Assembly: GCF_000013645.1 (NCBI RefSeq)
Contig: NC_007951.1
Coordinates: 620,001 to 684,000 of the forward strand
Direction: 5' to 3'
From: Paraburkholderia xenovorans LB400
Lineage (GTDB): Bacteria; Pseudomonadota; Gammaproteobacteria; Burkholderiales; Burkholderiaceae
DNA: 64,000 bases
A program made the position numbers and the translations under genes. This document shows positions 19,541-22,313 of the stretch, one piece after another (the first letter of the stretch is position 1; the number at the start of each line of letters is the position of its first letter). The notes beneath the pieces are model-generated. The model saw nothing but the letters and a program-made list of their open reading frames with translations. It searched no databases and was not told the origin of the DNA.

Positions 19541-19752
19541 TGGCCTTTTCTTGAATTGTTTTTTGGTTTATTAGCGTTGCCCCTGTGCGGGGCGGCACCT
19601 ACTTTCTTTGCATGCCGCAAAGAAAGTAGGCAAAGAAAGCGGCTTTACACCGCCAGCTCATAAGCGGGGCCCTCGCGCAGTTTCGGTAGTGGTGCGTCTG
19701 GAATCTGTGTTCTCGTACATTCAGCCCTGGTGACAAGGCTGTCATACCTCCG
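19541..19752 (+). repeat. Dispersed intergenic repeat, copy A
   Basis: About 210 bp with high similarity to the reverse complement of 22110-22313. It contains a perfect 14-bp hairpin, CCTACTTTCTTTGC and GCAAAGAAAGTAGG around ATGCC, plus the shared words TTGCCCCTGTGCGGGGCGGC and CAGCTCATAAGCGGGG. Such REP-like units recur in Paraburkholderia genomes (recalled, not searched). It begins about 40 bp after aspD. Confidence 0.8.
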
Positions 19753-20003
19753 GCGGCGCTGCGCGCGCCGATGGGCAATTCATAACAGGCCGTCTGCGGG
19801 GGGCTCTCGCGTATTGCCGGGCCTTGCCAATGATGCGCGGCAAGTCGGCAAAGGAGTGGATCAACACCGACATCATCCAATCTTCCAATTGGTGACGTTA
19901 AGCGGAGAATTGCGCGACCATTGATGTCCCGGCCCGCCTCGCGCGGCCTTTTCCGTTTCCTCACATACCGCTTGCGATGCTGGCTCGAATTTCAGCGCAA
20001 CAC

Positions 20004-20781: not shown

Positions 20782-20893
20782 CGTTTTACAACGGCAGCTC
20801 ATAAGCGGGGCTCTCGCACAGTCGCGGTAGCGGTGCATCTGGAATCTGTGTTCTCGCACATTCGGCGCATGTGACAAGGCCGTCATGCTTCCG
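20782..20893 (+). repeat. Dispersed intergenic repeat, partial copy C
   Basis: About 110 bp in direct orientation matching the second half of copy A: CAGCTCATAAGCGGGG, GGAATCTGTGTTCTCG and GTGACAAGGC are shared. The hairpin half is missing, so this looks like a truncated copy. Confidence 0.75.
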
Positions 20894-21062
20894 TCGCGGT
20901 AGTTCGTCTGCACATCAGCGAGGGTTTTTGCAGAAATTTCCTGGGTGGTGTAGTCCTCCGTTCGGGAGGATGTTTGCGAAATATCGGAATTCGTGGCCGC
21001 GGACGCGTTTTAGTCCATACGCATAACCACTCGCGGGATGATGTCGCTAAACTCGGTTTGTC

Positions 21063-21305
21063 GTGCGGTTCACGGCAAACAGGTTTCGCAGCCTGTGTTA
21101 CGTAGAACCCGCATGCTTGCACAAGCAGGAGTGCGGCTGCCTTCGCACGTCTTTTTCTCATGGGCGGGCCTTGGCGGGGGAGCCTCAAGGCTCACCGGTT
21201 GTTGGTTCTACGTGCCGGTCTGCGAATCCCGTCATTGTGCCCGCTCACCAACGTTCAAGTGAGTGTCGGGCGATCCGGGTAAGTTTCAGGGAGATCGCGT
21301 CATGA
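21063..21305 (+). CDS. Ash/Icd-like reading frame (phage satellite type)
   Basis: An 80-codon frame starting with GTG whose second half reads HGRALAGEPQGSPVVG then STCRSANPVIVPAHQRS. The G-R-A-x-A-G-x-P-x-G-x-P ... S-A-N-P-V pattern is that of the Ash (phage P4) and Icd-like proteins, whose coding region overlaps a regulatory antisense RNA in those phages. The frame ends in TGA that overlaps the ATG of the next gene (ATGA), consistent with coupling. Whether the peptide is functional or is only the imprint of a conserved RNA is uncertain, and the start is not fixed. Confidence 0.45.
   Translation: MRFTANRFRSLCYVEPACLHKQECGCLRTSFSHGRALAGEPQGSPVVGSTCRSANPVIVPAHQRSSECRAIRVSFREIAS
21095..21218 (+). 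ncRNA. Multi-hairpin element resembling C4/CI antisense RNA
   Basis: An outer perfect 10-bp stem (ACGTAGAACC at 21100 with GGTTCTACGT at 21204) encloses three small hairpins: TGCTT-GCAC-AAGCA, GTGCG-GCTGCCTT-CGCAC and GAGCC-TCAA-GGCTC. This multi-branch fold lies on the Ash/Icd-like frame. C4 RNAs of phages P1/P7 and CI RNA of P4 occupy the same place and act by pairing near downstream genes. The identity is inferred from the fold plus the Ash-like translation; no covariance model was run. Confidence 0.45.
21270..21298 (+). promoter_or_regulatory. Inverted repeat around the ribosome site of the 150-residue gene
   Basis: GCGATC and GATCGC flank the sequence holding GGGAG, the ribosome site for the gene starting at 21302. 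Pairing would partly hide the site, so initiation may depend on translation of, or antisense pairing with, the leader. Confidence 0.35.
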
Positions 21306-21754
21306 GTAAATCCGCCAAGAATTCACGCACCACGTCGCGCCCGCCGGTTGAGGCGCTTCAATACGAGAAACTCGCTTTGTCTGCATTTGGGCTGGTTGAA
21401 CGGCAACTGAGCCAACTGGAGAAGCTGATTACGCTTGCGGTCTCAATAGTTAGGAGTCCGGCGGTGACGCGTGAAGAACGGCATCGGCAGAGGAGATTGC
21501 TGGAGCTGCTGATCGACACGGGCGAGGATTACCAGAGGGAGGCCGAGATCGACAGTGAGTTGTATCAGGTCATTGCACTGGACGCGAAAGAAGTACCTCA
21601 AAGCCGGATCAAGGCGCGTCACGCGGCGAACCTTCTGGCCAAGGCGCTTCGGAAGCCATCAGACAATCGCGAACGAATCGGCGCAACCAGGGTAGTGCCG
21701 AGCAGGGCGATTCGCTTCAAAACGATGGCGCGACGTATAGCAACGGCGCACTGA
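21302..21754 (+). CDS. Unknown protein behind the Ash-like leader
   Basis: Hypothetical protein of 150 residues, mostly helical and charged: LQYEKLALSAFGLVERQLSQ, LEKLITLAVSIVRSPAV, LLELLIDTGEDYQREAEID. No membrane segment or signal is visible and no domain is recognised. It has a GGGAG ribosome site and overlaps the stop of the Ash-like frame by ATGA. The arrangement of leader RNA plus small protein recalls phage-satellite immunity regions, but no function is assigned. Confidence 0.65.
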   Translation: MSKSAKNSRTTSRPPVEALQYEKLALSAFGLVERQLSQLEKLITLAVSIVRSPAVTREERHRQRRLLELLIDTGEDYQREAEIDSELYQVIALDAKEVPQSRIKARHAANLLAKALRKPSDNRERIGATRVVPSRAIRFKTMARRIATAH

Positions 21755-21805
21755 CACAGAGACACAGCACTTCAGACCAGCCTCGAAAAGAGATACAGAA
21801 GAGCG

Positions 21806-21870
21806 GTACAAACGGAAGGTACAAACGGAAGACGCAAACAACAGGCGCAAACAACAGGCGCAAACAATAG
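21806..21870 (+). repeat. 13-bp tandem repeat, five units
   Basis: Two units GTACAAACGGAAG are followed by ACGCAAACAACAG, GCGCAAACAACAG and GCGCAAACAATAG. All are 13 bp and share the CAAAC core. It is a diverging minisatellite just downstream of the 150-residue gene. No spacers are present, so it is not CRISPR. Confidence 0.85.
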
Positions 21871-22109
21871 GCGCACCATATGCGTTGTTCGTATCTGAAG
21901 GGTACGGCGTTAAAACTTGGAACGCGGGCCGAATTCCTGTGCGGTGAGTGCCGTATGAAACGCATATGCGTTCAAGCGAAACGGGCCTTGAACAAGTGGA
22001 AGCTTATTCCGGCGTCTCGCCGAGGCAAAGCCGACGGCCTAACCGCATTTAAACGAAGTCTCTGGTTTTGAGCAGACCGTTCAGACGAGCGCGTAGCGCG
22101 AGGCGGGAA
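21871..22109. other. Spacer between the tandem repeat and copy B
   Basis: About 240 bp. A 63-codon plus-strand frame (from 21880) runs through it but has no ribosome site, no similarity that I recognise, and unremarkable codon use. I see no other signal. Confidence 0.35.
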
Positions 22110-22313
22110 GTATGACGGCCTTGTCACATGCGCCGAATGTGCGAGAGTGCAGATTCCAGATGCACCACTACCGTGGCTGCGCGAGGGCCCCGCTTAAGAA
22201 CTGGCGGTGTGAGCCGCTTTCTTTGCTTACTTTCTTTGCGGCCGCAAAGAAAGTGAGTGCCGCCCCGCACAGGGGCAACCCTAATAAACCAAAAACAATT
22301 CAAAAAAAGGCCA
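22110..22313 (-). repeat. Dispersed intergenic repeat, copy B (inverted)
   Basis: Read on the minus strand, it matches copy A from the GGCCTTTT start through TTGCCCCTGTGCGGGGCGGC to GACAAGGCCGTCATAC. Its hairpin is the perfect palindrome CTTTCTTTGCGGCCGCAAAGAAAG split by a NotI-like centre. With copy A it forms a ~2.8 kb inverted-repeat bracket around the island. Confidence 0.8.

Follow-up and report, generated by a model that had tools for sequence, protein, structure and literature searches.

A candidate multi-copy form of C4 antisense RNA control, with self-matched target sites, in Paraburkholderia

Introduction

What does an antisense RNA of a kind known from phages control when it lies in a bacterial chromosome ahead of an uncharacterised gene? 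The question is raised by a 64-kb stretch of Paraburkholderia xenovorans LB400 (64,000 nt, called the window throughout), in which a structured leader precedes a gene for a 150-residue protein, here named X. C4 RNAs are known from phages and satellites. In P1 and P7, the C4 fold contains two pairing segments, a′ and b′, the icd and ant genes lie downstream, and a further pair of target sites, a2/b2, covers the downstream ribosome site.

The C4 and c4-a1b1 motifs have been described (PMC2864571), and the chromids of Mycetohabitans carry C4 RNAs (PMC12696581). A search of the open-licence literature (C4 antisense RNA, c4-a1b1, Burkholderia small RNAs and Icd-like protein) found no description of the present module. 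On the comparisons presented below, which concern sequences throughout, the module is a new, multi-copy form of C4 control with self-matched target sites.

Identity and distribution of the C4 RNA

An Rfam scan, which the first-pass annotation of this DNA had proposed for the leader, matched the C4 antisense RNA (RF01695) at 21156–21252(+) with 51.9 bits against a gathering score of 45 (E = 4.3e-07); nothing else in the 64-kb window reached its gathering score. The annotation's claim of a C4-type antisense RNA linked to an uncharacterised gene is thereby borne out and, judged by the model score together with the pairing described below, the RNA is a true C4. The features of the locus are as follows, where A4 denotes an alignment of 47 leaders of relatives.

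21048..21053 (+), –10-like box TAAACT of the presumed leader promoter; a TATAAT or TAAACT-like box is present there in relatives
21057..21079 (+), leader hairpin 1, from the predicted fold; the equivalent helix is 91.3% paired in A4
21063..21305 (+), Ash-like open frame, not conserved and considered incidental
21085..21091 (+), target site a1, TTCGCAG, the 7-nt complement of a′ at 21220–21226
21100..21109 (+), target site b1, ACGTAGAACC, the 10-nt complement of b′
21110..21135 (+), antiterminator-like hairpin, whose 3′ arm GTGCG (21131–21135) is common to the next hairpin
21131..21158 (+), terminator-like hairpin and its T tract, separating C4 from the target sites; from a terminator scan
21156..21252 (+), C4 antisense RNA
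21204..21213 (+), b′ loop of C4, GGTTCTACGT, pairing with b1
21220..21226 (+), a′ segment of C4, pairing with a1
21270..21298 (+), hairpin GCGATC...GATCGC over the X ribosome site, with the Shine-Dalgarno motif CAGGGAG at 21287–21293
21302..21754 (+), gene X, encoding a basic protein of 150 aa (pI 10.5) that is mostly helical in a weak model; supported by homologues and dN/dS

The genome to which the window belongs (9.73 Mb, 3 contigs) harbors eight C4 loci, every one above the cut-off. Six precede a clear X homologue and one (L004) precedes a divergent X relative (26% identity; E = 5e-06 with the family profile). At the eighth, L008, the C4 also scores above the cut-off and X is absent downstream. 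Across the genus, C4 exceeds the cut-off in 85 of 117 genomes, with up to 11 copies each, and X is found at E = 1e-05 or better in 58 of the 117, with up to 10 copies. The eight C4 loci in one genome and the wide occurrence of X agree with the earlier suggestion of an independent cassette. Only 12 of the 37 C4 loci first examined (8 from the own genome and 29 high-scoring ones from other genomes) carry X, so the best-scoring C4s of the genus mostly belong to another class.

The linkage is close when approached from the side of X. C4 was above the cut-off at 19 of 20 X loci scanned with Rfam, L065 being the one without it. Spacing was measured in 122 loci (the 8 own loci, 5 C4 loci and L058–L166), and an X start was found in 118; the other four, which gave no value, are L004, L008, L057 and L165, the last two being truncated. 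The X start codon follows the C4 3′ anchor at 46–61 nt in 117 of these 118 genes, the exception being L140, and the same holds for 97 of the 98 different upstream sequences. Parsing recovered the two C4 anchors together in 109 of the 118.

Target sites in the leader

The "10-bp outer stem" of the first-pass annotation is exact, joining ACGTAGAACC (21100–21109) to GGTTCTACGT (21204–21213). By its sequence this stem is the b′ loop of C4 against a target site, b1, of its own leader.

Covariation was assessed in A4 over 66 pairs drawn on one member, L072. Paired cells make up 95.1% of the whole structure, against 87.9% after shuffling and 36–41% in partner-slid controls that keep the kinship of the sequences; the pairs were drawn after the pairing had already been noticed, which favours the true register over the slid controls. 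Two-sided changes occur in 26 of the 66 pairs (17.3 in shuffled alignments), counts that are not independent events because the leaders are related. The b1:b′ helix is 96.1% paired, and all 8 of its aligned columns have changed on both sides, one of them through one sequence only; a column holds as many as five kinds of pair. A ninth, outlying column reaches only 59.6% because length differences misalign it. The a1:a′ helix is 96.4% paired, with two-sided change in 4 of 7 pairs, again one through a single sequence. Compensatory changes in the stems of homologues, on which the first-pass annotation had staked its proposal, are thus present in both helices. The helices of C4 itself are 93–100% paired.

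In the X modules, the upstream sites match the own C4 with a mean run of 8.83 for b and 6.78 for a, against 5.26 and 5.20 for foreign copies. Near the X ribosome site, no second C4 target rises above foreign copies (b, 5.85 versus 5.92; a, 4.64 versus 4.69; n = 112). The c4-a1b1 motif (RF03163) scores 20.7 bits in L072 against a cut-off of 46.7 (E = 0.0055), under the gathering score.

Copy-by-copy specificity

Specificity was investigated in 128 loci, comprising 120 X loci from 25 genus genomes and the 8 own C4 loci. Initially 116 and then 113 were parsed, and the 15 unparsed loci lie outside the count. Within a copy, b1 matches b′ with a mean run of 8.84 nt and –13.5 kcal/mol (113 copies), compared with 4.50 nt and –5.4 kcal/mol for b1 against the b′ of other copies in the same genome (484 ordered pairs). 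Runs of at least 8 nt are found in 96 of 113 own comparisons, in 14 of 484 foreign ones within genomes and in 433 of 12,172 between genomes. Where a genome has at least three parsed copies, a C4 finds its best or equal-best target in its own leader in 97 of 100 cases (19.0 expected). The exceptions are L002, L182 and L277; in L002 the loop was misparsed and an own 9-nt match is present. Mutual matching in both a and b and in both directions is confined to the pair L261/L262. A previous count, which used wider windows and scored by duplex energy, placed the own target best in 42 of 103; it is superseded because the wide windows contained GC-rich stems.

With an a/b type particular to each copy, the modules of one genome would be controlled for the most part independently. 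Repulsion of b types within genomes was not seen (4 same-b pairs against 4.9 ± 2.1 expected). Among pairs with X identity of at least 90%, b is shared by 26 of the 170 that span two genomes and by 1 of the 16 that lie in one genome. What is seen at the sequence level is fast turnover of b types rather than repulsion.

Leader architecture

The leader (21054–21310) has a predicted fold of –106.3 kcal/mol (z = –2.45; equalled by 3 of 200 dinucleotide shuffles), and in this minimum-energy fold b1 is paired with b′ in cis, as are a1 and a′. The order of paired arms between b1 and C4 reads as the anatomy of an attenuator: the succession GCAC..GTGC..GCAC, whose middle arm can pair either way, is found in 72 of 108 leaders (89 under relaxed matching) and in 0 (4 relaxed) of 108 shuffled ones. 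The terminator-like score of the 108 leaders is 10.6, compared with 4.4 in shuffles that keep base composition only. A terminator scan of 1 kb on both strands found 2 where shuffling predicts 1.3, which is weak by itself, and the stem of the terminator is nearly invariant in A4, so that covariation gives no test of it.

A sigma-70 promoter scan of 20900–21900 gave no match. Upstream of the –10-like box, at about 20978–21045 of the window, lie the conserved motifs GAAATTTC.GAAAT and TTTAGC...GTGATCACTC, which are also found at the same place in L059, L064, L087, L092, L093, L097 and others and are perhaps an operator.

The ribosome site of X is folded in a hairpin of its own, with arms GCGATC (21270–21275) and GATCGC (21293–21298). 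This bracket, noted in the first pass, proved to be exact and also conserved, with 96.8% of cells paired across the 47 leaders and C-G to U-A changes in 4.

Gene X and the Ash-like frame

The 150-residue open reading frame picked out earlier is a real gene, with 451 homologues at E = 0.001 or better and a signature of purifying selection. Among the 120 matches listed of these 451, the nearest X with a species name belongs to P. xenovorans (96%). In a sample of the family, X occurs in 16 of 299 genomes, 15 of the same genus and 1 of another. No tblastn match to X was found in 50,697 phage records or in 72,556 plasmid records, and the 51 IMG/VR pattern matches include no sequence coding for a relative.

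Sixty-eight aligned X sequences have a mean column identity of 48%. The median dN/dS is 0.234 over 1170 pairs, with 0.146 for residues 1–116 and 0.49 for the tail (930 pairs), which argues that X is under purifying selection. X lacks a membrane-like stretch (best 19-residue hydropathy mean, 0.87), and the AlphaFold2 model is weak (pLDDT 66.6, pTM 0.43), with helices at 18–51, 57–96 and 105–117. Comparison with Pfam, NCBIfam, PHROGs, PADLOC, PDB sequences and, by Foldseek, PDB and viral structures returned nothing above threshold. Two NCBIfam candidates were rejected, a chorismate mutase (16.9 bits against a cut-off of 73.7) and a helicase family (12.9 against 348.9). Searching for homologues of the divergent L004 protein yielded four proteins, none of them a bridge to a known family. 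From its charge, one might guess that X binds nucleic acid.

An Ash/Icd protein was also considered as the point of the locus and rejected. The Ash/Icd-like signature read into the frame by the first-pass annotation did not hold up: the Phage_ASH profile (PF10554) scores 14.7 bits against a cut-off of 26 (E = 0.042), and over the stretch that begins 90 nt ahead of C4 and reaches X, the frame is open in 28 of 115 leaders, compared with 23 and 39 for the other two frames. The ATGA overlap with X is present in the window as described; as a general feature it falls away, the stop of the Ash frame being placed there in only 17 of 115 unique leaders.

C4 loci without X

A second class in the genus comprises 24 C4 loci without X (among L029–L057). 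In these, the matches to C4 have mean runs of 8.03 (b) and 6.89 (a) upstream and of 9.64 (b) and 7.02 (a) downstream, with non-cognate controls at 5.4–5.6. All 24 have downstream a2/b2 sites, with runs no shorter than 8.0 for b and 7.0 for a, and 22 of the 24 have the downstream b site overlapping or directly adjoining a motif that resembles a Shine-Dalgarno sequence ahead of a start codon (for example, CGTTCTAGGAGG). By eye, these loci have a hairpin and T run after b1, and their a2/b2 sites lie at the ribosome site of a short frame. Six downstream proteins picked by eye gave two PriCT-2 matches, one DnaG-type zinc ribbon, two DUF3987 matches and one helix-turn-helix family, a set that would fit replication genes of satellites or prophages.

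In the X modules a2/b2 are absent, and the X ribosome site is folded in its own conserved hairpin instead. As read from the sequences, this contrast between the two C4 classes is the clearest new fact. The first-pass claim that the window has the same arrangement as P1 and P7 therefore fails on the second C4 target over the downstream ribosome site, which X modules lack.

Chromosomal surroundings

Three repeat arms lie around the module in the window.

19541..19766 (+), left arm of a long inverted repeat enclosing the module, an 86% match to 22089–22313 in inverse orientation
20788..20892 (+), second, partial repeat arm on the left side, an 88% inverted match to 22106–22210
22089..22313 (–), right arm of the long inverted repeat, matching the left arm

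Such long repeats enclose window-type copies at 8 of 72 testable named loci, and also L141 at a contig end; among further window-type copies, L092 has one repeat arm and L094 has none. One arm has 14 matches in its own genome. A dispersed palindrome with inverted arms of about 100–240 nt occurs in the genus both with and without a central C4–X, as seen in the three arms of the window and in L310, L314, L348, L349, L351, L352 and L355. In L097, L100 and L106 the arms are arrays of a ~108-nt unit, recurring every ~137 nt, on both sides of C4–X.

Among 23 relatives, the site of the window holds only about 180–250 nt between the flanking genes in 6 and the repeat pair with X absent in 2, while 15 of the 23 are undecided. 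Among 19 relatives, the L089 site shows the repeat pair but no C4–X in 5 and neither of the two in 3, the right side not being resolved in 11. In 19 relatives, the L087 site has C4–X in one (G022) and the repeat pair without it in at least five. The repeat thus exists as a dispersed palindrome independent of C4–X; the exact insertion point inside it was not placed because the spacers are too diverged.

The whole stretch matches only between L098 and L102 among 80 named loci, and the DNA common to most locus pairs is the module itself, from about –330 to +340/+500 of the X start. Some sites recur in part, with an RF3 gene beside four copies and CbiX-type genes beside five. According to simple-script gene calls, 31 of 67 sites lie between converging genes and 5 of 67 between diverging genes. 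A survey of 140 of the 146 neighbour proteins, considering the 25 commonest of 135 Pfam families and of 84 PHROG families, found mostly ordinary chromosomal genes. The neighbours include three transposase families of two members each and a weak minor-head match with three members (best E = 6e-06); integrase, primase and satellite genes are absent from the 25 commonest families of either database. The earlier remark that no other phage genes are near stands to the extent that no prophage genes stand out among those families.

Proposed working of the module

We prefer the reading, with a probability of about 0.7, that the window carries one of the many copies of a Paraburkholderia module in which C4 is predicted to pair with its own a1/b1, likely switching X off. 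By sequence, the C4 identity, the fixed C4–X spacing, the a1:a′ and b1:b′ covariation, the matching of copies, the ribosome-site hairpin and the selection on X are established. A leader transcript would start from a promoter near 21050 and run through C4 into X, and C4 would be cut out of it, as it is released by RNase P in P1 and P7 (PMC5320573). Free C4 would pair with a1/b1 of new transcripts and favour the terminator-like hairpin at 21131–21158, so that neither C4 nor X would be made, a proposed negative feedback for which the action of the P4 CI RNA on seqA offers a precedent in termination (PMC4825925). Where C4 is scarce, as in a cell newly given the module, transcription would run into X, and the GCGATC/GATCGC hairpin would remain as a further barrier for ribosomes to unfold.

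The module may instead resemble a type I toxin–antitoxin system, in which X is harmful, the C4 RNA is the antitoxin and the copies are scattered addiction or selfish units; this is possible, although we doubt it. Antisense specificity for the own copy, as judged by sequence pairing (97 of 100), is what such a system would show, and sites that mostly differ between genomes, long inverted repeats round window-type copies and relatives' sites without the module are all in keeping with it. The protein fits poorly, being 150 aa long with a pI of 10.5 and a hydropathy maximum of 0.87 rather than a short hydrophobic peptide, and X has no PADLOC match. Purifying selection would be expected equally of a useful protein.

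According to the fold model, a1/b1 could also fold onto a′/b′ within one transcript as a cis lock rather than act as targets of a trans antisense. The leader with a1/b1 and C4 would then keep C4 and the X ribosome site folded until a short leader RNA opened them. Such opening is reported for IsrK of Gifsy-1, which PMC4825925 compares with P4 seqA. Besides this precedent, the minimum-energy fold, which pairs b1 with b′ in cis, and an isrK-like match of 28.7 bits in the leader of one relative (L072) point in this direction. However, the cut-off for IsrK (RF01394) is 50, and a lock would have no need of an intact C4 fold, yet the C4 helices are 93–100% paired; we therefore consider a lock rather unlikely.

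In Acinetobacter baumannii, C4-derived RNAs present in many copies have been proposed to act in trans (PMC5320573), and by analogy the C4 RNAs here would be small RNAs for other genes, with X a passenger. The many copies with variable loops recall the situation in that paper. The proposal is improbable for the present loci, where the partner with which b′ covaries lies in its own leader and the distance from C4 to X is nearly fixed in 117 of 118 cases. A guarding role, also suggested for A. baumannii (PMC5320573), would have resident C4 RNAs act against any phage or satellite that enters the cell and whose target sites match. It follows the logic of superinfection immunity and is very improbable here, since the b′ loops of X modules match the targets of the 24 X-less C4 loci in 100 of 5424 cases and reversed targets in 155. 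Finally, the locus could be the functionless remnant of a prophage immunity region. This reading, suggested by the occurrence of C4 in phages and satellites and by the 24 X-less loci of the genus with a2/b2 layout, some beside primase-type domains, is already contradicted by the purifying selection on X and the covariation, as well as by the absence of X from 50,697 phage records and IMG/VR, and can hardly be upheld.

If antisense control of X by its own C4 is correct, a phage immunity RNA would have persisted without a phage and multiplied in chromosomes while its specificity was kept per copy. The dozens of matched antisense pairs would form a natural library of how short RNA–RNA recognition diversifies without cross-talk, and the module would offer a clear entry point to what protein X does. 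More tentatively, the module could be a phage lysogeny switch turned phage-free, a set of scattered, mutually insulated RNA switches (up to 10 modules per genome) in which the antisense type is recorded twice, in b1 and in b′, the two changing together more quickly than X does; each switch would guard a protein released on loss of C4. This would be a new class of RNA antitoxin or heteroimmunity, with an antisense RNA that is excised from the leader of its own target message.

Comparison with known systems

Sib/Ibs loci are multi-copy type I toxin–antitoxin loci with paralogous antisense RNAs specific for their own copy. The antisense RNAs of the X modules are likewise paralogous and own-copy specific; unlike those of Sib/Ibs, they are part of the leader and share its strand, and they come with a large, basic protein. 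As in P4 CI/seqA, the X-module antisense RNA is predicted to pair with an upstream site in its own leader, with what by sequence is a terminator-like hairpin in between, whereas a downstream site like seqC is lacking and X takes the place of satellite genes.

The X module shares with P1 and P7 the C4 fold, the a′/b′ segments and a downstream protein gene (in part, PMC5320573). It differs in lacking a2/b2 over the downstream ribosome site, in having X rather than icd/ant downstream, in its many copies per genome and in the absence of phage genes among the neighbour families surveyed. The Group 1 C4-derived RNAs of A. baumannii are also numerous within one genome and have variable a′ loops, with targets left unidentified in the parts of the paper drawn on here (PMC5320573). 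The X modules are similar in having many C4-type RNAs in one genome and, relative to that description of Group 1 (PMC5320573), differ in their linked protein family and own-leader covariation. A leader RNA with a terminator and structured control of a downstream frame are shared with IsrK-orf45-anrP of Gifsy-1 (PMC4825925). In contrast to the X module, IsrK is a prophage locus, and the isrK model reaches only 28.7 bits against its cut-off of 50 in the relative's leader.

Other arrangements

Locus L063 has two tandem C4 RNAs (2009–2101 and 2541–2633) about 440 nt apart. The Rfam small RNA Bp1_684 is found near two X modules, at 2801–2924 in L067 and 2669–2793 in L068. One contig of P. fungorum harbors four X modules (L121, L132, L133 and L142; also L247–L249 and L251) within about 120 kb, and their b′ loops differ in all four.
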